Origin: an uncultured Bacilli bacterium
GTDB taxonomy: Bacteria > Bacillota_I > Bacilli_A > RFN20 > CAG-826
NCBI GenBank assembly: GCA_944363535.1
Contig: CALVUG010000010.1
Location: 1 to 36,918 of the forward strand
Length of the DNA stretch: 36,918 bases
Direction: 5' to 3'
Shown here: piece after piece, positions 14,034 to 28,623 of the stretch
Numbering within the stretch: position 1 is the stretch's first letter
Layout: every line of letters begins with the position of its first letter
Notes under the pieces: generated by a model
What the model was told of the DNA's origin: nothing
What the model saw: the letters and a program-made list of their open reading frames with translations, nothing else
Database searches by the model: none
Position numbers and translations under genes: made by a program

Positions 14034-14755
14034 AAAATTTTCCTCAAGGAAGATAATATATCTTCTTTTATCTTTTGATCTTCGATTTCATTTATAGCCA
14101 TCTGTAGATGCGCTAAAGTTAAAAGAAGCTTTGCTTCATCTTCATCCACTCCACGCGAAGCTAAATAAAACATCGCATTTTCATCAACTGAACCGACGCT
14201 TGCAGAATGCATGGCGATGACATCATCGCAGTCGATCGATAAGATAGGATCAGCCCTACCGTAAGAATCATCATCATAAACGATAATTTTAGCCACTTGT
14301 GAGACGCTTGCCTTATAGGCTTTTTCATAAATTTTTCCAACGCCAGCAAATCTTAACTTTCCGCCTTGAAGGGCGACACCAAGATTATGCATCGACGCTC
14401 TACTACGTTCGACTAGATGATGGAAGGAAACATCGATATTTTTATCATCATTTTCTTTAGCGACACTCGCTAAAGTCCAATCTAAAGATGAGTTTTCACC
14501 TACTAATTCAATATTTGCATTTAAATTTAATAAGCCATCACTTAAATCAAAGATGGTGACGTGCATCTTGGCTTCTTTTTTTAATTTACCAATAAAAGAT
14601 AAATCTTTTACTTCGCCGTTAAGGAAGATGATGAGACGAAGAGAAGAATTTTCATTTAAACTAAATTGCAGCGTAGAAAAATTCAAAGGACTAACCAAAG
14701 TTAAAGTCTTTTCTTCATCTTTATGCAAAGTTAAATTTTTTTTACTTACTTTCAT
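14030..14755 (-). CDS. sufD: Shortened SufD subunit of the SufBCD scaffold
   Basis: Forms the SufB-SufD heterodimer that carries the nascent cluster. Only 241 residues long against roughly 400-440 for usual SufD. The preserved part is the beta-helix core and the C-terminal end, with ILSIDCDDVIAMHSASVGSVDE (about 168-189) and MFYLASRGVDEDEAKLLL (191-208). The conserved histidine in MHSAS is present. The N-terminal helical domain is missing. The start lies 14 bases inside the end of sufC and the gene overlaps sufS by 4, so no lost 5' coding segment can be hidden here: it is a short form, not a broken gene. Confidence 0.9.
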   Translation of the reverse strand: MKVSKKNLTLHKDEEKTLTLVSPLNFSTLQFSLNENSSLRLIIFLNGEVKDLSFIGKLKKEAKMHVTIFDLSDGLLNLNANIELVGENSSLDWTLASVAKENDDKNIDVSFHHLVERSRASMHNLGVALQGGKLRFAGVGKIYEKAYKASVSQVAKIIVYDDDSYGRADPILSIDCDDVIAMHSASVGSVDENAMFYLASRGVDEDEAKLLLTLAHLQMAINEIEDQKIKEDILSSLRKIL

Positions 14756-15584
14756 TTTTCTCTTTCGCTCGATTTTTCTTAACAGCGCAGCTACCTAGGG
14801 AAATGACTTTCGGTTTAGCGTCTTCACCTTTCTTTAAAGAAATACCATATTCTTCTTCTAACCATTCGTAACCTTCGACGTCGATTTTTTCGACGTAACT
14901 ACTATCACCTTCGAAGACGATTCTACCATCGACGATGATGACGACGCTGCTAGGTTTCACGATTTCATATAGCCTTGCATAATGCGAGATGATTAAAATG
15001 CCTTTACCAGCATTTTGTTCTTCTTTTAAAGCTTTTGCGACGTAATTTATTGCATCGACATCTAGACCACTATCGATTTCATCTACCAAAGCAAAAAGCG
15101 GATTTAAAATGCGCATTTGCATAATTTCATTTTTCTTCTTTTCACCACCGCTAAAACCTTCGTTAAGTGAACGATTGACCATATCGAAAGGAAAGTTAAC
15201 TTCTTTCGTTGCGTTATTAAGTAGTTTATAAAATTCCGATAACGAAATTGGCTTTTCTCTTCTCGCGTTGATAGCGGATCTTAAAAAATCCGCCGTTGGA
15301 ACGCCTGGTACTTCCACCGGTAATTGCATGGCTAAGAATAGTCCTAGTCTCGATCTTTCCGATGGACTAAGTTTTAAAATATCTTTTCCGTCGAGTAATA
15401 TTTCACCTTCATCCACGTGGTAACGAGGATGACCCATGATCGTCATTAATAAGGTTGATTTACCGTGGCCATTCGGGCCGAATAAAGCGATAGTCTCGCC
15501 TTGATTTAAGGTGAGGTCAATTCCTTTTAAGATGGCCTTTCCATCGATTGATACGTGCAGGTTTTTAATCGTTAATGTATGCAT
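14742..15584 (-). CDS. sufC: SufC, ABC ATPase of the Fe-S assembly complex
   Basis: Cytoplasmic ATPase that drives SufB-SufD rearrangement. Walker A GPNGHGKST is at 36-44, the signature FSGGEKKK at 144-151 and Walker B ALVDEIDSGLD at 165-175, as in all SufC. The protein has a C-terminal extension of about 30 residues beyond the usual 250, rich in lysine. I chose the ATG at 15584 with GAGG 8-9 bases upstream; an in-frame GTG at 15593 would place the Shine-Dalgarno against the start. It is the first gene of the suf-mnmG-rsmG-parAB run, with a TATATAAAAT stretch upstream that may hold its promoter. Confidence 0.95.
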   Translation of the reverse strand: MHTLTIKNLHVSIDGKAILKGIDLTLNQGETIALFGPNGHGKSTLLMTIMGHPRYHVDEGEILLDGKDILKLSPSERSRLGLFLAMQLPVEVPGVPTADFLRSAINARREKPISLSEFYKLLNNATKEVNFPFDMVNRSLNEGFSGGEKKKNEIMQMRILNPLFALVDEIDSGLDVDAINYVAKALKEEQNAGKGILIISHYARLYEIVKPSSVVIIVDGRIVFEGDSSYVEKIDVEGYEWLEEEYGISLKKGEDAKPKVISLGSCAVKKNRAKEKNESK

Positions 15585-15703
15585 ATTTCTCACCTCGCGT
15601 GATTTATATTTTATATAATCGCTAATGATTTTACCACTCAGACGATAAAAAAGTAATTAAATAGTGTTCGGGCGTTATTTATAAATAAGGAGTAAAAATC
15701 TAT

Positions 15704-15769: not shown

Positions 15770-17599
15770 ATGAAAAAAAGCAAGCTTAGTTTCGGCCTCG
15801 CTTTTACACTCTTACCACTCGTCGCGGTATCAGCGTGTTCTCCCGCAGTAACTCCTAACGATGAAAACATCGTTTCTTTTACTGATCCAAATGGTAACAC
15901 TGTCAATATCCCGACCGATGAAATTTATGCTAACTACAAAGTCGAAAAAAATGGTGTCGAAAGATTTTACAACGCCTTAGTCGAAGTCGTAGTTCGTAAC
16001 GAGATGAACAAAGAAGAATATGCGGATACGAAAGCGCATTGTGAATCTTTAGCACGTAACCGTGTCGAAGGTTCAAAAGAACAAGCGCAAAGTAACGCAG
16101 AGGCAAATGGTACATCTTATGATGAAGAATTCGAAAGCATCTTAGATTCCAACAACTGTGAAGATGAAGAAGAATTGTTCGACCTTTACACTTATCAAGA
16201 GATGACAAGCGCTCTTGAAGATGAATGGTTCTCCACTGAAAAATTATCAGAACTACTCGTCGCCGAAGATGGTTACTTCGATACGGAAGTGCCTTATCAC
16301 ATCCGTCACATCTTAGTGAACGTCACCGCTTCCATCCCAGAAGGTTTATCCATCTCCACTTCACCATTCACTTCACAAGAAATTACATCTTCTGAAGCGG
16401 CAAAATTATCGAACGTCGTCTCCGCTTTAGCGAGCGGCAACGAATCATTCGGTACGATCGCTTATCGTTATAGCGATGATTCAAGTGGCGATACTTCTAG
16501 CCGTAACAATTATGGTGATGTTGGTATCATGGGCCGTTCGACATCGTTCGTCAACGAATTCAAATTAGGTATTTATACCTACGATTTACTCTATCAAAAC
16601 GATGCGACACGTAGCCAAACGCTCGAAACAGCCTTAGGTTTAGATGAGATGTATCCAAATGATGAAATTGCTACTGAATTCACAGATATGGGATTAAATA
16701 ATATAGGTACTATTCCATATGGCGAAATTCTTAAACTAGGTCAAGTCGCTAATGTCGAAACTTCCAACAGCGGCGCTCCAGTCAACAATGGCGTTTCTTT
16801 ATACTATCCTCGAAACATCCTCTTCAATAAATATTTCAATAAACATAATGTTTCTATCATCACTCCAAATGATGTAAGTGTCCCTGACGTCGACGCTAGT
16901 GGTCGTCTAGCTTCCCGTGAAGACTTCACTGGTACATTAAATATGAATTACGTCAATAATTCAAAAGGTCGTTTCCAACAAGTCGCTGCTTTAGATAATC
17001 AATATGCCTTATGTGATGAACAAGGTAACGTCATCTTAGCGGTCCGCGCTGGAAGCGGTTATGAAGGCGTCCACTTCATGGTCGTCCAACGTAATTACTT
17101 AGACGAAGTCGTCAATGACGTCACCTTACAAGAATATTACACGACCGCTATTCCAGGTGAAGAAGCTTATCCTACCACCGCTGATGGTCAAGATAAGGCG
17201 ACATACGTCAACTTCATCCGTGGTAATAACACGACTTATAACACTCGTGCTACGCAAGTTAGAGATGCTATCATGGCTTATAATCCTTACATCACCGATG
17301 ACATGTATTGGTCACTCTTCGAAGAACAAAACGTCGTCATCCACGATGAAACCTTAGCCACTAAGATCGATGAATATCTCGAAACGCGTAAATTAGATGA
17401 AACGTTCAATCGCAATGAAACGTTCGAAGATTCTTGGGATGCTTACATCGACTTACTCAAGATTCAACAACAACTTCGTGGCGTGAACGATGATGGCGAA
17501 CCAGTCAGATTAATTTCTGAAACATGCGCCGTTAAATTCCAAGAAGATCCTAACTCACCAGCCTTTGCTGAAGGAGGTATTTGTTACTATGCGCAATAA
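15770..17599 (+). CDS. Large secreted lipoprotein with parvulin-like (PrsA-type) peptidyl-prolyl isomerase domain
   Basis: Probable extracytoplasmic folding factor anchored to the membrane outer face. The signal peptide ends in the lipobox V-S-A-C with the lipidated cysteine at C23. Residues about 50-170 are helical and acidic, like the chaperone part of PrsA/SurA. From about 175 to 270 there is a parvulin pattern: YHIRHILV (176-183), FGTIAYRYSDD (227-237), then NYGDVGIMGR (247-256) and FVNEF (260-264). At 609 residues it is about twice the length of Bacillus PrsA, with long loops and an unassigned C-terminal half. AAGGAGG gives a firm start. It overlaps the next lipoprotein gene by 11 bases. 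Calling it PrsA itself would go too far. Confidence 0.8.
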   Translation: MKKSKLSFGLAFTLLPLVAVSACSPAVTPNDENIVSFTDPNGNTVNIPTDEIYANYKVEKNGVERFYNALVEVVVRNEMNKEEYADTKAHCESLARNRVEGSKEQAQSNAEANGTSYDEEFESILDSNNCEDEEELFDLYTYQEMTSALEDEWFSTEKLSELLVAEDGYFDTEVPYHIRHILVNVTASIPEGLSISTSPFTSQEITSSEAAKLSNVVSALASGNESFGTIAYRYSDDSSGDTSSRNNYGDVGIMGRSTSFVNEFKLGIYTYDLLYQNDATRSQTLETALGLDEMYPNDEIATEFTDMGLNNIGTIPYGEILKLGQVANVETSNSGAPVNNGVSLYYPRNILFNKYFNKHNVSIITPNDVSVPDVDASGRLASREDFTGTLNMNYVNNSKGRFQQVAALDNQYALCDEQGNVILAVRAGSGYEGVHFMVVQRNYLDEVVNDVTLQEYYTTAIPGEEAYPTTADGQDKATYVNFIRGNNTTYNTRATQVRDAIMAYNPYITDDMYWSLFEEQNVVIHDETLATKIDEYLETRKLDETFNRNETFEDSWDAYIDLLKIQQQLRGVNDDGEPVRLISETCAVKFQEDPNSPAFAEGGICYYAQ

Positions 17600-19289
17600 G
17601 AAATTATTTGTCATCGCTGCTTTAGCAGGTGTCGTCTTAACTGGCTGTTCTGAAGTAAGAGCCCACCCAGGCGATTACGATGATCCTATCTTAAATAATC
17701 CTGATGGCACAAAAGTTGATGTTGTAAACAACATCGCAAGCGTCGTCTACGATGCTCTCGATGATGCTGGTACGACCAACGAACAAGTTCTTGAAACTTT
17801 AAAAGTTAGTCTTGCTGAATCGATCTTTGGCACCGCCGAAGAACTTGAAGCAGCTTATAGTAGCGGCGCAAGTAGCGAAGCCTTCACTAACTTAAAAAAT
17901 ACGCATGCTTATTACACCGAAGATATCGAAGAAACTTTAAGCGAAACTGAAAAGAATGAATATTCTTTCTGGCGTTTAGAACAATTAGTGGCTGAAGTTC
18001 AAGACCGTATTCTCGATGCGTATTATGGCCTCATCATCGGTGGTGATTATAGTGATGATTCCTTGTTTAGCGAAGAAAAATTCGCTAACTTCATCCGTAG
18101 CGAGCTTTATGAAGTAGTAGATCCTGAAACTGAAGCTTTCCCTACTACTTTCTATGAAGATGTATTAATCACTCCAAGCAAGACTTACGAAACGATCGAA
18201 ACTTGGGGAATTCATATCGATTATTATGAAGATTACACTCGTCGTGTCATCATCCCCAACATCTACATCGATTTGTTAGCGGAACAATATCTCTTCGATG
18301 AAAACTATTCATCCTTAGGGAGAAGTTACGCCCGTAAAGTCAATTACATCGCAATTACTTCTAACGATGAGTTTGCAAATGCTGCTCCTTATTTAATGCT
18401 AAATTTCATCGAACAAAACATCTTAGCGGAAGACGCTACAGCTGAAACCGCTAATTTGGAAATACTTGCGAATGCTTGGAGGGGTTATGCAGATGATTAT
18501 CTTAAAAAAGGCAATGAAACTGAACTATTAAACCTTTCTCTCGGTGCTGGTTCGTTCCAAAATAAGACGACCCGCGCTGAACATGGTTCCATCTCCTATT
18601 ACAGTGGTACGCAATACGGTAACATCTTAGACGATTACGATTTAATCTACGAAGATGATCCGCAAAGAAACGATCAAACAGTCGAATCTGATTTCACTAA
18701 TTCTTATTCTTATACGATCGAAAAAGGTCTCGAACTTAAGACGAGAACGATGCGTACGACCGATTATACGACTGATGGTTGGTTCATCCAAAACGGTGGT
18801 TTATCCACTTTACCTTCTTGGATTAGAACTAGATTATTCAATATCGGTGTCGCTAACGCCATCGATGATATTACCGATGAAAAAGATGCTTCAGTAGCAG
18901 AAGCTGACCGCGTCACTTCTAACTTCGTCCGTAAGATTGATGGTTATTATTATTTATTACCACAAACGACACAAAGTGGTAGCGAAGATGTCGACTTCTT
19001 ACTTTACGACAATGATTCTAAGACTTATTACATCATCCAAATTGAAGAAGCTGTCTCATCTTCTAAACTCAATCGTAATTCCCAAAATAATTACACCAAT
19101 ATCCACCAAGACCATGGTGAATACATGGAAGAAGTAGCGAGAAACATCGCTGAAACGATGGCGGAAGGCGGAAGTTATGATGATCAAGCTATCCTCTTCT
19201 ACTTCGAAAATATGGACTTACAATATTACGATGAAGACCTCTACAATTACTTCGTCGAAACCTTCCCAGATTTATTCGAAGAAGATTAA
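17589..19289 (+). CDS. Large secreted lipoprotein, likely divergent paralogue of the upstream PrsA-like protein
   Basis: Function unknown. With the ATG at 17589 (GGAGG 11 bases upstream) the protein opens with a short basic signal peptide and the lipobox V-L-T-G-C, cysteine at 20. About 565 residues, acidic, rich in Tyr, Asp and Glu. It parallels its neighbour: a NPDGTKVDV stretch after the lipobox against DPNGNTVNI; a helical N-terminal half; and near the C-terminus a strand like TYYIIQIEE followed by a closing NMDLQYYDEDLYNYF against NVVIHDETLATKIDEYL. No parvulin signature remains. The 11-base overlap implies coupled production, so the two may act together at the cell surface. An in-frame ATG at 17565 exists but lies before the Shine-Dalgarno. 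Confidence 0.75.
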   Translation: MRNKKLFVIAALAGVVLTGCSEVRAHPGDYDDPILNNPDGTKVDVVNNIASVVYDALDDAGTTNEQVLETLKVSLAESIFGTAEELEAAYSSGASSEAFTNLKNTHAYYTEDIEETLSETEKNEYSFWRLEQLVAEVQDRILDAYYGLIIGGDYSDDSLFSEEKFANFIRSELYEVVDPETEAFPTTFYEDVLITPSKTYETIETWGIHIDYYEDYTRRVIIPNIYIDLLAEQYLFDENYSSLGRSYARKVNYIAITSNDEFANAAPYLMLNFIEQNILAEDATAETANLEILANAWRGYADDYLKKGNETELLNLSLGAGSFQNKTTRAEHGSISYYSGTQYGNILDDYDLIYEDDPQRNDQTVESDFTNSYSYTIEKGLELKTRTMRTTDYTTDGWFIQNGGLSTLPSWIRTRLFNIGVANAIDDITDEKDASVAEADRVTSNFVRKIDGYYYLLPQTTQSGSEDVDFLLYDNDSKTYYIIQIEEAVSSSKLNRNSQNNYTNIHQDHGEYMEEVARNIAETMAEGGSYDDQAILFYFENMDLQYYDEDLYNYFVETFPDLFEED

Positions 19290-19315
19290 TTCATCGCTTC
19301 ATTAAAGAAAATTAG

Positions 19316-19341
19316 GAGGCTAGAAAAAACTAGCCTCTTTT
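19316..19341 (+). terminator. Terminator after the lipoprotein pair
   Basis: GAGGCTAG (19316-19323), loop AAAAAA, CTAGCCTC (19330-19337), then a T-rich tract. A perfect 8-bp stem. Confidence 0.93.
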
Positions 19342-19392
19342 CTTTATTTTAATAGTATAATTATATTAACAAATATAAAGGAGATGATATTC

Positions 19393-19815
19393 ATGGCTAA
19401 ATACGATGCGAACTGTATCTTTTGTCAAATTGCCCAAGATAAAATCAAAGCTTATAAAATTTATGAAGATGATCAAGTCCTAGCGTTTCTTGACACTAAT
19501 CCTAAATCGATGGGACACGCCTTAGTGATTCCTAAGGTTCATCACGATAACTTCTTAACCACTCCTAAAGACATCATGCACAAAGTTTACGATGTCGCAC
19601 AAAAGATTGGCCAAGCCGATATGAATGGTTTAGGCGCAGTCGGTATCAACATTCTTACGAATTGTTACGAACCCGCTGGACAAAGTGTCATGCACTTCCA
19701 CGTGCACGTCATTCCGCGTTATCTTACCGGTGAACGTTACCAAATCGATATGAAGGAAAATTTAGACGATAAAAACTTACCTGCAATCGTGAAAGTAATT
19801 AAAGATAATTTATAA
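19393..19815 (+). CDS. hit: HIT family nucleotide hydrolase/phosphoramidase
   Basis: Small histidine-triad protein that cleaves nucleotide phosphoramidates and related substrates; the physiological substrate is not known. CIFC near the N-terminus resembles the zinc-site cysteines of Hit proteins, GHALVIPK is typical, and the catalytic triad is HFHVHVIPR near residues 112-120. I chose the ATG at 19393, with AAGGAG 9 bases upstream; an ATG at 19384 abuts the Shine-Dalgarno. A TATAAT at 19356-19361 probably drives it. It converges on the YhaM-like gene with 5 bases between them and no visible terminator. Confidence 0.94.
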   Translation: MAKYDANCIFCQIAQDKIKAYKIYEDDQVLAFLDTNPKSMGHALVIPKVHHDNFLTTPKDIMHKVYDVAQKIGQADMNGLGAVGINILTNCYEPAGQSVMHFHVHVIPRYLTGERYQIDMKENLDDKNLPAIVKVIKDNL

Positions 19816-19820
19816 AATTG

Positions 19821-20759
19821 TTATTTGTTCGATTTCTTCGGTTGATAGAAAGAACGATCATCGAACGCTAAAACACGTTGCGACCATTCCCCGCCCTTCA
19901 CGTCGTGGAGGGCTTTTTCAACCATCTCAAGTTTAGCGTCCATATCATCGATCATATTGAGGGCTAAAGCTTCTTTTATCATCGGTTCGACGGGTGAACC
20001 ATATTCTTTTTTGCCGTGATGAGTAAGAATTAGATGTTCTAAGACGAGACGCACTTCATCATCGACACCTAATTCTTTACATTTATTAGATATGAGCGCA
20101 TGCGCGATGCTAATGTGACCGATGAGACGTCCTTCGTTCGTGTATTTAGCGATGATGGGACCTGATAATTCGATGACTTTACCTAAATCGTGTAAGATCG
20201 TCCCACTTAATAAAATATCCGAGTCTAAAGAAGGATAAAGATTTAAAAGCGCCTTCGCTAAACGAACCATATGGACGCTATGGACGAGTAAGCCACCAGC
20301 GAATTCATGATGATTTTTCGTCGCTGCCGGAAAGCTAATAAATTTATCGCGATATTCATCTAGTAAAGTTTTTACGACGAGATGATAATCCTTATCTTTG
20401 ATAAGGGCAATAGAATCGTCTAGTTCCTTTTCTAAGGCCTTAAAATCGTAATTAGGGCGAGGAATATAATCTTCGAGGTGATAATCATCAGGTAAGACGT
20501 TCATCACCTTGTAGACCTTCAATTGCATCTGATCACGATATAGATAAGTTACCCCATCCACGCGCACGACTTTACCGACGTCAATAACTTGATAATCACC
20601 AGGTTCAATTTCCCATTTCTTCGCTTCGATGGAACCACTTTTATCTTGTAAAGTAATCGAAAGATATGGTGAGCCGCTACTATTGACGCCGCGGACGACG
20701 TTCGTCACAAGAAATTTTTCACCATAAATTTCTTCATTTGATTCGAAATCTTTAATCAT
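19821..20759 (-). CDS. yhaM: 3'-5' exoribonuclease YhaM-like (OB fold plus HD domain)
   Basis: Metal-dependent 3'-5' exonuclease that trims RNA (and can cut DNA in Bacillus). An OB-fold occupies about 10-90, with YLSITLQDKSGSIEAKKW (32-49). The HD domain follows, with HEFAGGLLVHS (151-161), the HDLGK motif (190-194) and THHGK and DDMDAK further on as metal ligands. The length of 312 matches YhaM/CbfA. It overlaps recX by 4 bases and ends the operon. Confidence 0.9.
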   Translation of the reverse strand: MIKDFESNEEIYGEKFLVTNVVRGVNSSGSPYLSITLQDKSGSIEAKKWEIEPGDYQVIDVGKVVRVDGVTYLYRDQMQLKVYKVMNVLPDDYHLEDYIPRPNYDFKALEKELDDSIALIKDKDYHLVVKTLLDEYRDKFISFPAATKNHHEFAGGLLVHSVHMVRLAKALLNLYPSLDSDILLSGTILHDLGKVIELSGPIIAKYTNEGRLIGHISIAHALISNKCKELGVDDEVRLVLEHLILTHHGKKEYGSPVEPMIKEALALNMIDDMDAKLEMVEKALHDVKGGEWSQRVLAFDDRSFYQPKKSNK

Positions 20760-21538
20760 TTGAAATATTCCTCCATCAGCATGAAAATCGTTCTTTGCCT
20801 ATAGCCTATGCGTTCCATCCCGCGATAAAACTTTTGTTTATCTTCTTTCGCTTTCATTTTTTGTTTCATCGCATCAAGACGCGCCTGATCCATATCGACT
20901 TCTTCAGCGAATTTAACGTGAGCGAGTTCTTCATCGATCAAACTAATCTTAAAACCGTAGTTATATAAAGCTTTACGTAATTTATATTTTCCAAGCGGAC
21001 CATATTTATCATATTTTGGTTTTATTAAGCGAATTTGTCTCTTCAAATTTTCTCTTTCAATCTTTTCGTCGAAAGGAAAATTATCGACGTGAAAATAGAT
21101 ACGTTTATCAGCGAGTTTCTTCTCGCATTCTTTGTAAGAATAGCCTTTCGATAAATAATACGCTAAATATTCTTCTCTTAACGTTCTATCATCGAATAGA
21201 TGCCTCTTATTATCGAGTTCATACATGATCTTTTTAATTTGTTCTTCGTCTAATCCTTCTTTTTTAGCGAGGCGTTCTTTGAAGAAACTTCTTGAAACTT
21301 TATATTTATTTAAATACTTAATATATTTTTTTAGGGTTTGATATTGTTTAGTTTCATCTAAGATTTTTTTCACTTCCGCAGTAGTTAGTGTTTTAGAAAC
21401 GTAAAGACGATTATTCAAAGTAGTTTCAAAGTCGCAAGGAAAATTATTTCCGTCGCTTAAATAGACGATATTATTGGCTTTTTGTCGCTTAATCGCAACG
21501 ATTTCTAAATTACCAATTCTTTTTGATGGCTCTTGCAT
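20756..21538 (-). CDS. recX: RecX regulatory protein
   Basis: Modulates RecA filaments during recombination and SOS repair. The 260-residue protein is made of repeated three-helix units typical of RecX: YLNKYKVSRSFFKERLAKK, then YLAYYLSKGYSYKECEKKL, and a third ending in YRQRTIFMLMEEYF. The start lies 29 bases inside the end of the glycosyltransferase gene, so the reading frames overlap. recA is not in the window. Confidence 0.88.
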   Translation of the reverse strand: MQEPSKRIGNLEIVAIKRQKANNIVYLSDGNNFPCDFETTLNNRLYVSKTLTTAEVKKILDETKQYQTLKKYIKYLNKYKVSRSFFKERLAKKEGLDEEQIKKIMYELDNKRHLFDDRTLREEYLAYYLSKGYSYKECEKKLADKRIYFHVDNFPFDEKIERENLKRQIRLIKPKYDKYGPLGKYKLRKALYNYGFKISLIDEELAHVKFAEEVDMDQARLDAMKQKMKAKEDKQKFYRGMERIGYRQRTIFMLMEEYFK

Positions 21539-22694
21539 ACACCTTCTTAATCCTTTCGTAAAATTTTTCTATCGAATATTCGTCCATCTTCTTAAAGGCA
21601 TCATCTTTTATCTTTTCTAACTCTTCTTCTTTTAAAGATAAAATCAACTCTAACTTCTTGACGAAGTCATCTTCATCGTAGAAGAAGAAACCATTCTTCC
21701 CACTTTCAATTAAATTATACAAATTATCATCATATCTCGCTAAGACGATGCGGCGTGCGGCCATAGCTTCAAGATAAGTTAAGCCTTGTGTTTCTGAAGT
21801 CGAAGCCGAGACGTAAATATCGCTTAGATTATAATAGAAACCTACTTCTTCATTAGGAACTTTACCTAAGAATAAAATTTCTTTTTCTAAGCCAAGATTT
21901 TTACTCATGTTTTTCAATTCTTCTTCGTGTGGACCGCTACCGACGATCAAGAGTTTCATCTTTTGTTTTGGATGAGCTTTACGATATTTAGCGTAATCTA
22001 AGATGACGACATCGACGCTTTTAGCTTTATCGACGCGGCCAAGACACAGTAATGTCTTCGTGTCTTCATCAATTCCTAATTCTTCTTTTTTCTTCTTCAA
22101 TGCGGAAACATCTTGATTTTGAGGTAAGAAACGATGAAAATCGATGCCGGTTGGAATGATATTAATATAAGATTCCACTCCTATTTCCCTTAGATAATTT
22201 TTAATCTTTTTAGAAGGCGTAATAAATTCATCCGCCATATCAGCGATGACTCCAACGAACCACCTAATAGCGTTTTTTGCTAAGCGGTCAAAGTGACCTT
22301 TGAAGAAGTCGCTAAAATAGTAAGTGTAATCTTCGTATTGTGTGTGGTAAGTATAAACTGCGGGCACATGTAATAAATACGAGATTATGCGACCAAAAAA
22401 TCCCACACCTAAATCAGATTGGACGTGTAAGACGTCAGGTTTGAACTTTTTGATGAACGTCGTCACCTTCGAATGATAGAACCAAGTGAAACGATAATTG
22501 AACATATTTTTCATCACGAGACCAGGTATACGTACGATATCTTTTTCGTAAGTAATTTCGTTGCTGAAAGGATTAGTGGTCACAATCAACACTTCGTGAC
22601 CATGTTCTTCAAAAGTTTTTTTCATGTATAAAGTTGACGTCGCTACGCCATTAATTTCTGGTGGATAAGTGTCAGAAAAGACGACGATACGCAT
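21510..22694 (-). CDS. GT4 glycosyltransferase, probably diacylglycerol glucosyltransferase
   Basis: GT-B-fold retaining glycosyltransferase. The N-terminus, MRIVVFSDTYPPEINGVATS, and GHEVLIVTTNPF closely resemble 1,2-diacylglycerol 3-glucosyltransferases of Mollicutes and Bacillota. The donor-binding C-terminal half has CLGRVDKAKSVDVVI and the EX7E region STSETQGLTYLEAMA with E's in the expected places. At 394 residues it has normal length. It lies 15 bases after the flippase-like gene, which supports a membrane glycolipid or lipid-linked polymer pathway. Specificity is inferred from resemblance; a polysaccharide mannosyltransferase is possible. Confidence 0.82.
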   Translation of the reverse strand: MRIVVFSDTYPPEINGVATSTLYMKKTFEEHGHEVLIVTTNPFSNEITYEKDIVRIPGLVMKNMFNYRFTWFYHSKVTTFIKKFKPDVLHVQSDLGVGFFGRIISYLLHVPAVYTYHTQYEDYTYYFSDFFKGHFDRLAKNAIRWFVGVIADMADEFITPSKKIKNYLREIGVESYINIIPTGIDFHRFLPQNQDVSALKKKKEELGIDEDTKTLLCLGRVDKAKSVDVVILDYAKYRKAHPKQKMKLLIVGSGPHEEELKNMSKNLGLEKEILFLGKVPNEEVGFYYNLSDIYVSASTSETQGLTYLEAMAARRIVLARYDDNLYNLIESGKNGFFFYDEDDFVKKLELILSLKEEELEKIKDDAFKKMDEYSIEKFYERIKKVYARAIKKNW

Positions 22695-22709
22695 ATTCTT
22701 TTCTCCCCT

Positions 22710-24188
22710 TTATAACTTATTATCGATGTCGATTTCAGTGAAGCTATCTTGCTTACTAGCTTTCTTCACTTCTTTAATCTTATCTTTTCTCGTATCGAGA
22801 TAATATGCATCATCTTGGAAATTGATGATGAGTGAATCTTCATCTTCGATATTATCTATAGGGGTCCTCCTTCTTCTTAAATGTAATTTTTCTTGTAAGG
22901 CCCGCCTTGAAAGTTGCGAAGTTTCATATTGCTTATTAGAAGATAGACGACGTTCTTCAAACGTACGTAATTGTAATTCCAAATACGTTTGACGAATGGA
23001 ACTTTTGTCCGTATCCATCTCGCTTGGTGTCGCACGGTAAAAAGCAGTGAAAAGACCAGCGAACAGCAATGGGACAGTATAAATTGAAAAACGCCAGATG
23101 ATGAGCGAAGCATTCGTCACCGCTTGCGTCGTAAAAAAACCTGCGCCTGGATTTAGGTCATTATAGAACATGACGGAGAAGAAAATTTCTGAAATGCCGG
23201 CGGTGCCAGGTAAAGGCCAAAAGCCAGTACACATCTGGTGGAAACTAGACATGAAGCAAGCATCGAAGAAGGAATTGATGTTCGTATTATTTAATCCATC
23301 TAAGGCCATTCCCGCAAAGTAAGGAATACAATATTTTGCCGTCATCATGATGAAACTACAGACGATAATTAGAAGTAAGAAAGGAATATTAGATTGAAGA
23401 CGTCTCAATTCAATTTTGAAGTTTTCAACTTGAATTCTTAAAGATTCTCTCGTCTTTTCAGGATGTTTAAGTAGATGCATCTTCGCAAGTAGGTTAATGC
23501 TATGTTTCATAATAAAATTATGAATGTGACGGTTATAAGACATTAAGAACAATAGACCAATTAAAGAAATGTTAATGATGAAACCAAAAATCGCTAGAGG
23601 CCAAACAGGAATTGGCACACCATTAAGATTAAAAGAACCAATCGAACTAATTAAGTCATATTTAAAGATGAATGATAAGATGCCGTATAAAATTAAGACG
23701 ATTTGATAAGTGATAAAAGACATGACCATGATGCTTGCCGCGTTAGAGACAGGTACACCTTGTTTAGAAAGAGTACGCGTTTGAAAAACTTGTTCACCTG
23801 TTCCAGCTGGTAAGACACCATCGTAAAACATTCCGACGAGTTTATTCGCCATCGCTTGTCGGAATTTATAACGTCTCGTATATAATCTTGCGTAACAAAA
23901 GATGATGAAGGCATCGACGAGGAAGTGGAAGAACACAATCGCGGCGATGACAAGAATCCAACGCCAATCCGTACTTGTAAAAGCATTGACGACGTCAAAA
24001 AAGTTATTATATAAAGTTAAGGCAAGCGAACCTGCCGTAAGAAGTAAGATGATGATGATGTAAGCGGTGTATTTTGCGATAGGCGAAACACGCTTTTTCT
24101 TACGATTCTCTTCCCCTTCTTTTAAAGCTTCCTCGACTTCAGGATCAAGGGCTTCTTCATTCATTGTCTCGATGTCTTCTTTTTTCAT
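22710..24188 (-). CDS. Flippase-like integral membrane protein (LPG synthase TM / UPF0104 / YbhN family)
   Basis: Polytopic membrane protein of the family that shares the flippase domain of MprF. After a charged cytoplasmic start (1-38) there are about eight hydrophobic segments between 39 and 370. Family marks are GMFYDGVLPAGTGEQVFQTR (about 118-137) and the GTAGISEIFF stretch (about 304-313). The C-terminal 110 residues are a charged cytoplasmic tail. There is no MprF synthase domain, so it is not a lysyl-PG synthase. The neighbouring GT4 gene suggests it moves or supports a glycolipid product. The Shine-Dalgarno is weak. Confidence 0.85.
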   Translation of the reverse strand: MKKEDIETMNEEALDPEVEEALKEGEENRKKKRVSPIAKYTAYIIIILLLTAGSLALTLYNNFFDVVNAFTSTDWRWILVIAAIVFFHFLVDAFIIFCYARLYTRRYKFRQAMANKLVGMFYDGVLPAGTGEQVFQTRTLSKQGVPVSNAASIMVMSFITYQIVLILYGILSFIFKYDLISSIGSFNLNGVPIPVWPLAIFGFIINISLIGLLFLMSYNRHIHNFIMKHSINLLAKMHLLKHPEKTRESLRIQVENFKIELRRLQSNIPFLLLIIVCSFIMMTAKYCIPYFAGMALDGLNNTNINSFFDACFMSSFHQMCTGFWPLPGTAGISEIFFSVMFYNDLNPGAGFFTTQAVTNASLIIWRFSIYTVPLLFAGLFTAFYRATPSEMDTDKSSIRQTYLELQLRTFEERRLSSNKQYETSQLSRRALQEKLHLRRRRTPIDNIEDEDSLIINFQDDAYYLDTRKDKIKEVKKASKQDSFTEIDIDNKL

Positions 24189-24898: not shown

Positions 24899-26683
24899 AT
24901 GAAAGAGTATTTGAAATTCGTCGGAAACATTTTAAAAGAACATAAAGGGCGTTACGCCTTATGTTTCATCTTCCAATTCATCTCAGTTTTTTTCACTCTT
25001 CTTTCGACTTTCCTTTCTAAAATTCTCATCGATTGTTTAAATGGTGATATTTTTAATATCGAGCTAACTGGTGTGGTTGAACAAACGATCGTCAGCATCT
25101 TAGGTGGACCTGAATTTCTTCAAAATAATTATTGGTTATTTTCGATCATCATCTTCACCGTTGGTTTAGCGATCGCCTCTATTAACGTCGCTAGAGCGTT
25201 AACGAATGCTTCCGTCACCGTTGGCATCTCCAAAAAAATGCGCGTCATGTTATTCGATCACATCCAAAGGATGCCCTTTTCAAAAATTCGTTCTTTTCAA
25301 TCAGGGGATTTAATTCAAACTTGCACTCGAGATGAAAATATCTTAAGACGCTTCGCTGTCCAAGAAACTTTACTCATCACTTACACTTTATTTTTAATCG
25401 TCATCGCTTTCTTGCTTTTACTTTCAATTAATTGGATCATCGCTTTGACAAGTATCGCTATTCTTCCTATCTTATTTATCTATTCTTTTTTCATCATTAA
25501 AATCGTTAGAAAAAGATATCGCGCCACTGATGATTCAGAAGGTTTATTAACTTCTAAAATTGAAGAAAATATCTCCGCGGTAAGATTAGTGAAAGCTTAC
25601 AATAATGAAAATTATGAAATCAAAGATTTTAATCGTTACTTAAAAGATTATCGTAAGAAATTTATTTCTTGGCGACTCATGTCTTCTTTATATTTTGCGT
25701 CGAGCGATATCTTAGTGTTCTCTCAAATTACGTTCACGACGGTCTTTTCTTTATATCTTACTCTCATCGGGGAAGTTTCAGTTGGAACTTTCGTCATCTC
25801 TTTCACTTTCGTCAATTTGATGGTGTGGCCAGTAAGAGACGTCGCTTCCACTTTATCTAATCTCGCCCGTGCTTTCGTAAGCGTCGACCGCATGAACCTA
25901 ATTTTAAAAGAGAAGAAAGAAGATACTTTAAGTGGAAGTAAACCAAAAATTGATGGAACGATCAAATTCGATCACGTCTATTTTTCTTACGACGAGAATG
26001 AACCAATTTTAAAAGATATATCTTTAGATATCAAAGCTGGCGAAACGATCGCTATCATGGGTCGCACTGGTTCAGGCAAATCCACTTTAGCGCAGCTCCT
26101 TGCTAGACTTTATGACGTTAATGCTGGCCATATCTATCTTGGCGAAAATGACATTAATGACATCCAAAAAGATTATTTAAGACATAACGTCGCTATCGTC
26201 TTACAAGAACCTTTCTTATTTTCTAAGACGATCGAAGATAATCTTCGTCTCGCTGACGCAAGTTTAAATGAAGAAAAGATGATAGAAGCGACAAGTATCG
26301 CTAATATCGATGAAACGATCCACGGTTTTGAAAAAGGTTACCTCACCCCCGTCGGTGAAAAAGGTGTAACTTTATCCGGTGGACAAAAACAAAGACTTGC
26401 TATCGCTAGAACTTTACTCACTAACGCCCCTATCTTAATTTTTGATGATTCGTTAAGCGCTCTCGATACGGAAACAGATTTAAAAATTAGAAGTAACTTA
26501 AAAAAGAGAGCTAATAAACATACGACTATCATCATCACTCACCGCGTCGCCACCGCCAAAGACGCTGATCGTATCTTAATATTAAATGAAGGTAAGATTG
26601 AAGCTTTAGGAAAACACGAAGAACTTCTTAAAAAAGAAGGTTTATATAAAAGAATTTATGAAATACAGACGAGGATGGTGTGA
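24899..26683 (+). CDS. ABC exporter half-transporter with degenerate catalytic site
   Basis: First subunit of a heterodimeric type IV exporter (drug or lipid). The N-terminal transmembrane domain covers about 1-310 (six helices). The nucleotide-binding domain has Walker A GRTGSGKS (388-395), a canonical signature LSGGQ (492-496), and Walker B ending in IFDDS with D517 in place of the catalytic glutamate; the switch histidine is H548. An Asp at this place is typical of the degenerate site of LmrCD and TM287/288-type exporters. Its stop overlaps the start region of the partner gene. No substrate can be named from sequence. Confidence 0.92.
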   Translation: MKEYLKFVGNILKEHKGRYALCFIFQFISVFFTLLSTFLSKILIDCLNGDIFNIELTGVVEQTIVSILGGPEFLQNNYWLFSIIIFTVGLAIASINVARALTNASVTVGISKKMRVMLFDHIQRMPFSKIRSFQSGDLIQTCTRDENILRRFAVQETLLITYTLFLIVIAFLLLLSINWIIALTSIAILPILFIYSFFIIKIVRKRYRATDDSEGLLTSKIEENISAVRLVKAYNNENYEIKDFNRYLKDYRKKFISWRLMSSLYFASSDILVFSQITFTTVFSLYLTLIGEVSVGTFVISFTFVNLMVWPVRDVASTLSNLARAFVSVDRMNLILKEKKEDTLSGSKPKIDGTIKFDHVYFSYDENEPILKDISLDIKAGETIAIMGRTGSGKSTLAQLLARLYDVNAGHIYLGENDINDIQKDYLRHNVAIVLQEPFLFSKTIEDNLRLADASLNEEKMIEATSIANIDETIHGFEKGYLTPVGEKGVTLSGGQKQRLAIARTLLTNAPILIFDDSLSALDTETDLKIRSNLKKRANKHTTIIITHRVATAKDADRILILNEGKIEALGKHEELLKKEGLYKRIYEIQTRMV

Positions 26684-26685
26684 TT

Positions 26686-28623
26686 ATGGCCTTTGCCTTC
26701 CAAGAAGAAGCCTTACCAAAAAAACTTAATTTCTACGTCTGGAAAAGAATTTTAAAGTACGCTTTAAGAAGGTGGAAATTAATTTTATTACTTTTGCTTT
26801 GCGTCATCATCGTTACCTTCTATGATAGTGCTTTTATTCCTTTGATGAGTAAAGCCGCCATCGATAGTGTCGAAGCTAATCTTGGGATGGACTTTGCAAG
26901 TTTTCTCATCCCCGTCGATATTTATGGTATTAAATTTGACGTCACCTACTGGGCTTACGTCTTTATCTTAATGGGTGGAATAATCTTACGTTCCATCGCT
27001 ATTTTATTCAATTTCTTCCTCATGAATTACATCGCCATGTGCATCGTTATGGATCTAAGAATCGATGGTTATCGACGTATCCAAGAATTATCCTTCTCTT
27101 ATTTTGATCGCACTCCATCTGGTTGGCTCATCGCAAGATTACAAAATGATGCTTCTAGCATCGGTGATCTTTTATCGCATGGCCTCACCAATATGATTTG
27201 GATGTCTTTTGAAATTATCTTCACTTTAATTACGATGTTCATCGTCTCTTGGCAAATGTCACTAGTGATCCTTATCACCGTTCCTTTCATCATGGTTATT
27301 TCTCCTATCTTCGAACTAAAGATTTTAAAGAAACATCGTCTAGCAAGAAGCGCTTATTCGAACTTTGTAAGATGGCTCGCTGAATGTATCGCCGGAGCGA
27401 TGACTATCAAGACCTTAGCGATCGAAAATCAAGTCGAAAATGAAGCGAGCGAAGTGACTGAAGACATCCGTAAGAAGATGTTCGCCGGAAGAAAAGTTAA
27501 CGCTTTCTTTCAACCTTCCATCTCCTTACTTTCTAGCCTTGCAACGGCCTTAGTGATAACTTTTGGTATCTACGTCTTCCATGCGAATGAATCCGATTAC
27601 ATCATCTCCATTTCCACTCTCGTCTTAGCGTTAGGCTTCGTTTCAAAAATCTATTCCCCTTTACAATCATTCTTCGAAATATTTGCAGAATTTATGTCCG
27701 AACAAGCTTCCGCTGAAAAGCTTTTGAACTTGATCGATACGAAACCCGCGATTGAAGATAGTGAAAAAGTCATAGCAAAATATGGTACTTTATTTGCCCC
27801 TAAATTAGAAAATTATGAAAAGATGCAAGGTCATATCAAATTTGATCACGTCTCTTTTTCTTACTTACCGGAAATCGAAGTCATCCACGACTTAAATATC
27901 GATATTCCAGAAGGCACTTCTTTAGCCATCGTTGGAGAAACCGGAAGCGGTAAATCGACCCTAGTTTCCCTTCTAGCAAGATTTTATGAACCAACTGCTG
28001 GTAATATCTTAATTGATGACGTTGATTATCGCTCCCGTTCCGTCGGTTGGCTTCGCTCTAACATCGGTTTTGTCCAGCAAAATCCCTTCATTTTCCGTGG
28101 TTCTTTTAAAGATAATATCGCTTATGGTAAGCCCGATGCAAGCCTAGAAGAAATAAGACGCGCAGCGATGCTAGTGGACATCGATTCATTCATCATGTCC
28201 TTTAAAGATGGTTACGATCATCTTCTCGTAGATGGCGGAAACGAGTTATCGACTGGTCAAAAACAACTCATATCTTTTGCTAGAGCCATCATAAGAAATC
28301 CGCGCATCATGATCTTAGATGAAGCTACCTCTAGCGTCGATACGGAAACGGAATTAACGATTCAAAGTGCATTCAACATGATTTTAAAAGGAAGAACTTC
28401 CATCATCATCGCCCACCGCCTTTCCACCATCGTTAACGCTGATCGAATCCTTGTGATGAAGGACGGAAAAATACTCGAAGACGGCAATCATAAATCTTTG
28501 ATGCAAAAGAAAGGTTACTATCATCGCTTGTACATGAACCAATTTAAAGAACTGACAATCGACGAACAAATATCGACTTACGAAGCACAAATTGAAGGAA
28601 TGAAATTAGATAATAAAATTTAA
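26686..28623 (+). CDS. ABC exporter half-transporter, catalytically competent partner
   Basis: Second subunit of the heterodimer. The transmembrane domain spans about 20-370, longer than its partner's through an inserted loop after helix 1. Walker A GETGSGKS is at 417-424, the signature is LSTGQ (521-525) instead of LSGGQ, and Walker B has the full DE (545-546). With the partner's D517, the off-consensus signature falls in the same composite site, leaving one normal and one degenerate ATP site. The ATG at 26686 is preferred (GAGG 11 bases upstream); a GTG at 26680 overlaps the previous stop. Its stop codon shares a TTAA with the stop of the convergent gene. Confidence 0.92.
   Translation: MAFAFQEEALPKKLNFYVWKRILKYALRRWKLILLLLLCVIIVTFYDSAFIPLMSKAAIDSVEANLGMDFASFLIPVDIYGIKFDVTYWAYVFILMGGIILRSIAILFNFFLMNYIAMCIVMDLRIDGYRRIQELSFSYFDRTPSGWLIARLQNDASSIGDLLSHGLTNMIWMSFEIIFTLITMFIVSWQMSLVILITVPFIMVISPIFELKILKKHRLARSAYSNFVRWLAECIAGAMTIKTLAIENQVENEASEVTEDIRKKMFAGRKVNAFFQPSISLLSSLATALVITFGIYVFHANESDYIISISTLVLALGFVSKIYSPLQSFFEIFAEFMSEQASAEKLLNLIDTKPAIEDSEKVIAKYGTLFAPKLENYEKMQGHIKFDHVSFSYLPEIEVIHDLNIDIPEGTSLAIVGETGSGKSTLVSLLARFYEPTAGNILIDDVDYRSRSVGWLRSNIGFVQQNPFIFRGSFKDNIAYGKPDASLEEIRRAAMLVDIDSFIMSFKDGYDHLLVDGGNELSTGQKQLISFARAIIRNPRIMILDEATSSVDTETELTIQSAFNMILKGRTSIIIAHRLSTIVNADRILVMKDGKILEDGNHKSLMQKKGYYHRLYMNQFKELTIDEQISTYEAQIEGMKLDNKI

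Follow-up and report, generated by a model that had tools for sequence, protein, structure and literature searches.

Overlapping genes for two PrsA-type lipoproteins, one with and one apparently without a parvulin active site, in an uncultured Bacilli bacterium

The window analysed here is the whole 36,918-nucleotide stretch at positions 1 to 36,918 (forward strand) of contig CALVUG010000010.1, from assembly GCA_944363535.1 of an uncultured Bacilli bacterium. It carries two overlapping genes, here termed P1 and P2, for large lipoproteins. The sequence of P1 marks it as a foldase of the PrsA type, apparently a working enzyme with predicted catalytic activity, and P2 likely adopts the PrsA fold along its length with an active site that is apparently dead. 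In Gram-positive bacteria the folding of exported proteins depends chiefly on PrsA, which is regarded as a homodimer; the protein of Streptococcus pneumoniae is also named PpmA. The two genes and their ribosome-binding sites, the latter read from the sequence, are as follows.

15770-17599, plus strand: P1, PrsA-type parvulin lipoprotein, 609 amino acids
17589-19289, plus strand (ATG at 17589, stop at 19289): P2, probable PrsA-fold lipoprotein apparently lacking the parvulin active site, 566 amino acids
15754-15758, plus strand: ribosome-binding site GGAGG of P1
17573-17577, plus strand: ribosome-binding site GGAGG of P2, within P1

A first-pass annotation of this DNA had reported two large lipoproteins of about twice the size of PrsA, encoded by genes that overlap by 11 bases; the coordinates, the overlap (17589-17599) and the sizes all hold. 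The lipobox that it had read in both proteins is likewise present: each starts with a signal peptide followed by VSAC in P1 (C23) and LTGC in P2 (C20). The lipobox cysteine is invariant in the P1 alignments A4 (32 rows) and A1 (23 more distant rows) and in the wider P2 alignment A2 (20 rows).

Residues 176-265 of P1 match the Pfam families Rotamase_3 (E-value, E, 1.2e-4, above the cut-off) and Rotamase (E 8e-4), and P1 is the only match to Rotamase (PF00639) in the genome. Searched by sequence against solved structures, P1 finds PrsA (E 1.5e-6). Its parvulin features are listed below, the four single residues being assigned by alignment to PrsA and Pin1.

16295-17092, plus strand: parvulin domain, residues ~176-441, split by an insert (Pfam, model and alignment)
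16595-16969, plus strand: insert, residues ~276-400, before the last strands (predicted secondary structure)
16307-16309, plus strand: catalytic-type residue H180
16478-16480, plus strand: catalytic-type residue D237
16559-16561, plus strand: catalytic-type residue F264
17072-17074, plus strand: catalytic-type residue H435

The reference residues for this assignment are those given in PMC11853100 and PMC2678132. Listeria PrsA1 has the active-site residues His142, Asp174, Met192, Phe196 and His220 (PMC11853100), whose counterparts by alignment are H180, D237, F260, F264 and H435 of P1. The H/D/F/H set is complete in 31 of the 32 rows of A4 and in 19 of the 23 rows of A1, and a [YF]PRN motif is conserved in P1 (32/32 rows); the insert regions of both proteins contain conserved motifs. 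The predicted model of P1 (m69d41f5bb5d3; predicted local distance difference test, pLDDT, 83.3) aligns over residues 49-538 with PrsA chains (Z 9.3, root-mean-square deviation (rmsd) 7-8, ~246 residues). The seven leading entries reach Z 8.7-9.3, and on this alignment P1 has an N/C foldase part around its parvulin domain, a predicted resemblance at moderate Z; the parvulin region of the model superposes on human parvulin 14 with an rmsd of 2.6 over 97 residues. The genomic position agrees with this assignment: yhaM adjoins prsA2 of Listeria and prsA of Staphylococcus aureus and lies near prsA in Bacillus subtilis (PMC3921577), so that the place of P1 near a yhaM gene fits PrsA. As a separate observation, two cysteines of P1, residues 586 (17525-17527) and 605 (17582-17584), are kept in at least 90% of the A4 rows; a disulphide between them, behind the foldase part, is possible.

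P2 has no match above chance in Pfam or NCBIfam, which bears out the earlier view that only the first protein carries a parvulin signature. By sequence it finds only ATP synthase gamma chains among solved structures, at chance level (E 0.78 or worse). The predicted model of P2 (m5ff52b3b8b56; pLDDT 83.9) finds PrsA in all of the top five Foldseek entries, and nine PrsA and one SurA in the best ten. In the VIA comparison, its residues 29-560 align with B. subtilis PrsA (4wo7) at Z 8.4 (rmsd 7.0, 249 residues), followed by Listeria PrsA1, an Enterococcus faecium peptidyl-prolyl isomerase (PPIase) and others; the eight leading rows are PrsA-type chains or PpiD, and clearly unrelated rows begin at Z 2.6. 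For this model the ranking counts more than Z, because unrelated helical models can reach similar values; the PrsA fold of P2 is thus a prediction whose Z is close to the level reachable by a common arrangement. The parvulin domains of SurA and PpiD align to P2 residues 246-490 with an rmsd of about 3 in the model, and SurA and PpiD rows rank below PrsA for both models; the records of the relatives are Bacilli metagenome-assembled genomes (MAGs). Since almost the whole of each model can be aligned to PrsA chains, the two folds are not unrelated, which answers the structural check that the first-pass annotation had suggested. The corresponding region of P2 comprises the following features.

18327-19055, plus strand: pseudo-parvulin region, residues ~247-489 (model alignment to SurA/PpiD parvulin domains)
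18501-18764, plus strand: insert, residues ~305-392, before the second strand (predicted secondary structure)
18339-18341, plus strand: V251, near the position of the first active-site His (strand reading)
19026-19028, plus strand: Y480, near the position of the second active-site His (strand reading)

The equivalence of V251 and Y480 to the two histidines is a reading of the strands and not of a printed superposition. The first strand of the parvulin-fold region reads YAR(K/E)VN in all rows of the P2 alignment A5 (37 rows), and the last strand is TYYIVQI. No row of A5 (0/37) has a His at residues 248-255 or 476-485, and in the wider A2 each of the two stretches contains one in 1 of 20 rows. 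We name P2 a PrsA-fold pseudo-parvulin and not a PPIase, because it has no family match and His at neither place (37/37). A precedent is S. pneumoniae PrsA, in which Ile and Tyr replace the two histidines, PPIase activity is absent and a substrate is still folded (PMC11853100).

P1 and P2 do not recognize each other directly: BLASTP returned nothing significant. An hhalign match between their N-termini (94.6-94.7%) was rejected as a signal-peptide match, because its probability fell below 4% after removal of the signal peptides. The NPDG/DPNG motif, which had earlier been taken as a mark linking the two proteins, occurs in only 3 of 32 P1 rows and 2 of 37 P2 rows, namely the window's own and its closest relatives; being confined to these, it is genus-local and no evidence of common ancestry. 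The BLASTP motif YDLLYQNDATRS / YDLIYEDDPQRN is not taken as homology either, because by the model reading it lies in the helix before the insert in P1 and inside the insert in P2.

A chain of homologues nevertheless connects the two. Run over 296 genomes of the class, the P2 profile gave weak matches in another family, f25, in which PrsA-sized genes stand in pairs. Profiles of the first (A7) and second (A6) genes of these pairs were compared with those of P1 and P2 on the mature parts, with signal peptides removed. P1 matches A7 (E 8e-25), A7 matches A6 (E 1.2e-28 over 251 columns), P1 also matches A6 (E 2.6e-9), and A6 matches P2 (E 7e-11 over 73 C-terminal columns, the weakest link); none of the column-reversed controls was significant. 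Paralogy of P1 and P2 is thus supported through a chain of homologues that share gene order and neighbours, not by a direct match, and we infer that P2 arose as an old tandem duplicate. The description of P2 as a paralogue that had lost the isomerase motif accordingly stands as far as the histidines and the paralogy via intermediates are concerned; the parvulin fold itself is retained in the model.

In f25 the first gene encodes a PrsA-like protein of ~326 amino acids with a membrane anchor (by sequence reading) and a Rotamase match in 30/30 cases, and the second a lipoprotein of ~290 amino acids with a weak Rotamase_2 match in 21/30; the second genes also score weakly as PrsA. Searches detected the second gene in 53 of this family's 57 genomes, with a PrsA-like gene directly before it in all 30 loci; five further rows repeat the same places and stand outside the 30. 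At some of the loci suf genes lie upstream or a HIT gene adjoins. At the two active-site columns of A7 (residues 171 and 258 in L133:525-1496), 20 of 30 first genes carry both histidines and the other 10 carry neither; no row has a single one, and the most frequent substitution is I/Y, the combination also seen in pneumococcal PrsA. The His pair is thus lost as a unit, and in these 10 of 30 neither partner may be a PPIase.

Pairs of other sizes occur as well. The window's order has lengths of ~614 + 566 (medians of 41 pairs), compared with ~326 + 290 in f25, 331 + 284 in f20 (L202) and ~880-1110 + 810-920 in f12; the loci read in f17 have a single ordinary PrsA. The tandem giants of f12 lie at the following positions.

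L193: 3499-9094
L194: 2100-7401
L195: 5883-11719
L197: 2690-8167
L201: 274-6075

Scanned at two loci, these giants gave no Pfam family and a single sub-threshold match. A pattern search finds no lipobox in the first gene, and in the single locus that Pfam was used to check (L193) yhaM follows downstream. For the N-halves the A6 profile gives E 1.6e-8 and 8.9e-14, and for the C-half of the first giant A7 gives E 5.9e-7; the C-half of the second has no clear match, and N-halves against C-halves are not significant. These partial matches are what a fusion of two PrsA units in each giant might produce. The suggestion that such a pair is specific to the lineage of the window therefore fails, PrsA-sized versions being present in other families of Bacilli.

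The co-occurrence of P1 and P2 was followed through 58 genomes, the window's own among them, that share its genus, family or order. With single sequences as queries, 43 of these yielded P2 and 50 yielded P1, and every one of the 43 has P1 adjacent (the window, 40 fully read loci and two weaker loci, L073 and L081). Profile searches and listings of open reading frames (ORFs) add 11 genomes (G039, G040, G041, G043, G045, G046, G048, G050, G051, G053 and G055), so that P1 and P2 are adjacent in 54 of 58 and apart in none, which answers the co-occurrence check suggested in the first-pass annotation. Among the four exceptions, G004 has P1 followed by an unrecognized ORF of 541 residues, the second gene of G034 falls where its stretch ends, and in G006 and G009 neither P1 nor P2 was found. 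In the named collection P1 lies directly upstream at 36 of 37 loci, and the remaining one starts too near P2 to tell; several of these loci come from genomes also among the 58. P1 is broken into two ORFs in L099, L109 and L117, and P2 is partial in L117. Against three congeners the ratio of non-synonymous to synonymous substitution rates is 0.10, 0.06 and 0.20 for P1 and 0.13, 0.09 and 0.10 for P2, with synonymous sites approaching saturation in the third comparison. Purifying selection thus acts on both genes, and P2 is no decaying gene. One locus, L089 (CAMBSI010000002.1), is titled a Staphylococcus epidermidis MAG, yet its P1/P2 pair is ~38-42% identical to that of the window; its title or binning is probably wrong.

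Because P1 and P2 stand side by side in almost all relatives, we suggest that they work as a unit outside the membrane. We propose, with a probability of roughly 0.55, that they assemble into one extracytoplasmic foldase of the PrsA type, with P1 as its catalytic and P2 as its chaperone-only subunit, probably in the form of a heterodimer. P1 would be the lineage's PrsA, lipid-anchored, with an N/C foldase part and a parvulin domain bearing the catalytic residues. P2, the putative duplicate, would have kept the PrsA fold and the lipid anchor and lost the parvulin active site, and might bind or hold unfolded exported chains without isomerizing prolines. The overlap of the genes, with the ribosome-binding site of P2 inside P1, could provide for joint translation and similar amounts. 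On this basis we infer a P1:P2 complex on the outer face of the membrane, in which both proteins would form the foldase bowl and P1 alone would isomerize; the conserved inserts of ~90-130 residues in both parvulin regions are probably docking or lid surfaces. The heterodimer is the likeliest arrangement, because known PrsA proteins dimerize via their foldase parts and the two genes overlap. PrsA dimerizes by an N-terminal swap, and dimerization is the property most needed for its function in Listeria (PMC12826049); isomerase activity is dispensable for several PrsA substrates (PMC12445088, PMC3921577), and the idea that native and foreign PrsA could heterodimerize in one cell is in print (PMC6749698). 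Tentatively, and at somewhat less than even odds, the proposal may extend to Bacilli beyond the model genera, whose folding outside the cytoplasm would rely on an obligate PrsA hetero-oligomer of a catalytic subunit and a pseudo-enzyme; the pair would then predate the split of several families, its size having doubled in the window's order and reached 800-1100 residues per subunit in f12.

Several observations weigh against the two-subunit foldase. The best Foldseek matches to PrsA are weak for both models (E 0.003 for P1 and 0.011 for P2). The mature P1 and P2 profiles, compared directly, reach a probability of 1.9%, which is not significant, nor is the match between A7 and P2, and the link from A6 to P2 covers 73 C-terminal columns. 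Pin1 remains active with both histidines mutated (PMC2678132); loss of His is hence no strict proof of lost catalysis, and the dead site of P2 is likely, not proven. The division into an active and an inactive partner is not universal, as 10 of the 30 PrsA-sized first genes have lost both histidines. Finally, the inserts sit at different sites in P1 (~276-400) and P2 (~305-392), which suggests that they were gained separately.

Among the alternatives, the one that survives best, although we regard it as doubtful, is that P1 and P2 are two separate PrsA foldases, each homodimeric and serving its own substrates, as Listeria PrsA1 and PrsA2 do, held together merely by tandem duplication and a common operon. 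Known PrsA proteins are homodimeric, PrsA paralogues are non-redundant and inactive PrsA proteins work alone in streptococci. Moreover, arrays longer than a pair exist in f4, with P1-P2-P1 in L076 (414-5422) and a similar repeat in G053 C1 (~523206-529603); in these arrays first and second genes alternate, as P1-P2-P1 or as two pairs. The strict adjacency argues in the other direction: the genes are never apart, and their spacing in 40 loci (-53 to +19 bases, with start sites chosen by rule) usually amounts to overlap or near-contact, which favours equal dosage. Longer first partners also go with longer second ones (Spearman 0.67 for 41 pairs; 0.62 for f25, 35 rows including 5 repeats), a correlation that could arise from relatedness alone.

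It is improbable that P2 is a surface protein with another job, such as adhesion or a cell-surface structure, on a PrsA-like scaffold, and P1 its dedicated folding helper. The divergence of P2, which no family model finds and the P1 profile does not reach, would suit such a role, as would conserved motifs specific to P2, for example LGR.YAR in 35 of 37 rows. However, the model shows P2 arranged like PrsA all the way from its lipid anchor to its C-terminus, and weak scores as parvulin (Rotamase_2, 21/30) and as PrsA persist among the second genes of PrsA-sized pairs. That P2 is unrelated to PrsA, a common helical arrangement whose adjacency reflects only a conserved operon, would explain the low Foldseek scores and the missing direct match but is highly improbable given the PrsA-type or PpiD chains that lead its ranking down to the first clearly unrelated row at Z 2.6, and given that A6 matches both the PrsA-like A7 (251 columns, E 1e-28) and P2 (E 7e-11) with clean reversed controls.

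The proposed two-subunit foldase resembles known systems in part. With the PrsA proteins of B. subtilis, Listeria and Staphylococcus it shares the lipoprotein nature, the N/C foldase part round a parvulin domain, the catalytic residues of P1 and a nearby yhaM; P1 and P2 differ from these in being about twice as long, in their parvulin inserts and in forming an overlapping pair whose second member has no active site. SurA and PpiD of Gram-negative bacteria carry parvulin domains on a SurA-type chaperone body and match P2 at 246-490; they are periplasmic or transmembrane and not paired lipoproteins, unlike P1 and P2. YfgM is not known to be a PrsA-type paralogue. PpiD acts as a heterodimer with YfgM (PMC9643414). 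Also comparable are S. pneumoniae PrsA and S. pyogenes PrsA1 and PrsA2, with the PrsA fold, both histidines replaced (Ile150 and Tyr235), no PPIase activity and the foldase function kept (PMC11853100); P2 has Val and Tyr nearby. These streptococcal proteins are of ordinary size and are recognized as PrsA, whereas P2 escapes the family models, and the available part of that source describes no tandem active/inactive pair. Precedents exist for inactive PrsA proteins, for two or three PrsA copies in one genome and for a yhaM gene close to prsA; for a tandem active/inactive pair kept across families, or for the doubled size, no paper was found in the literature searched (listings and the starts of abstracts, with most subscription papers outside). 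If the reading is true, a conserved pair of a catalytic and a dead partner is a natural experiment that separates isomerase from chaperone function, set in uncultured Bacilli with genomes near 1 Mb in which P1 is the only parvulin found, and large lipoproteins missed by the family models gain a name.

Around the pair lie the following signals and genes, with neighbour counts from the 40 fully read loci, several of which end early at contig ends.

15704-15732, plus strand: weak promoter-like site TTGATA-17-TAAAAT, 5' of the pair
19314-19339, plus strand: intrinsic terminator 3' of the pair, 10-bp stem and T-rich tail (sequence scan)
14742-15593, minus strand: SufC-like ATPase gene, divergent upstream neighbour, position kept in 35/40 related loci
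19384-19815, plus strand: HIT-domain protein gene, downstream, on the same strand in 36/40
19821-20759, minus strand: YhaM 3'-5' exoribonuclease gene, downstream, present in 28/40

The gene at 14742-15593 is one that we take to be SufC from its sequence type. Of the shared promoter and strong terminator assigned to the pair in the first-pass annotation, the terminator is upheld, terminator-like sites being more frequent in the window than expected from shuffles (6 against 2.5); the promoter is weak evidence, because the count of such sites is not above chance (10 against 10.6 in shuffles). Further downstream, glycolipid genes lie near the pair: at 21510-24188 a monoglucosyldiacylglycerol synthase-like glycosyltransferase adjoins a membrane protein of the LPG-synthase type. 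At 24899-28623 the window also contains two overlapping genes for MsbA-like ABC exporters (594 and 647 amino acids), likely a heterodimeric exporter.

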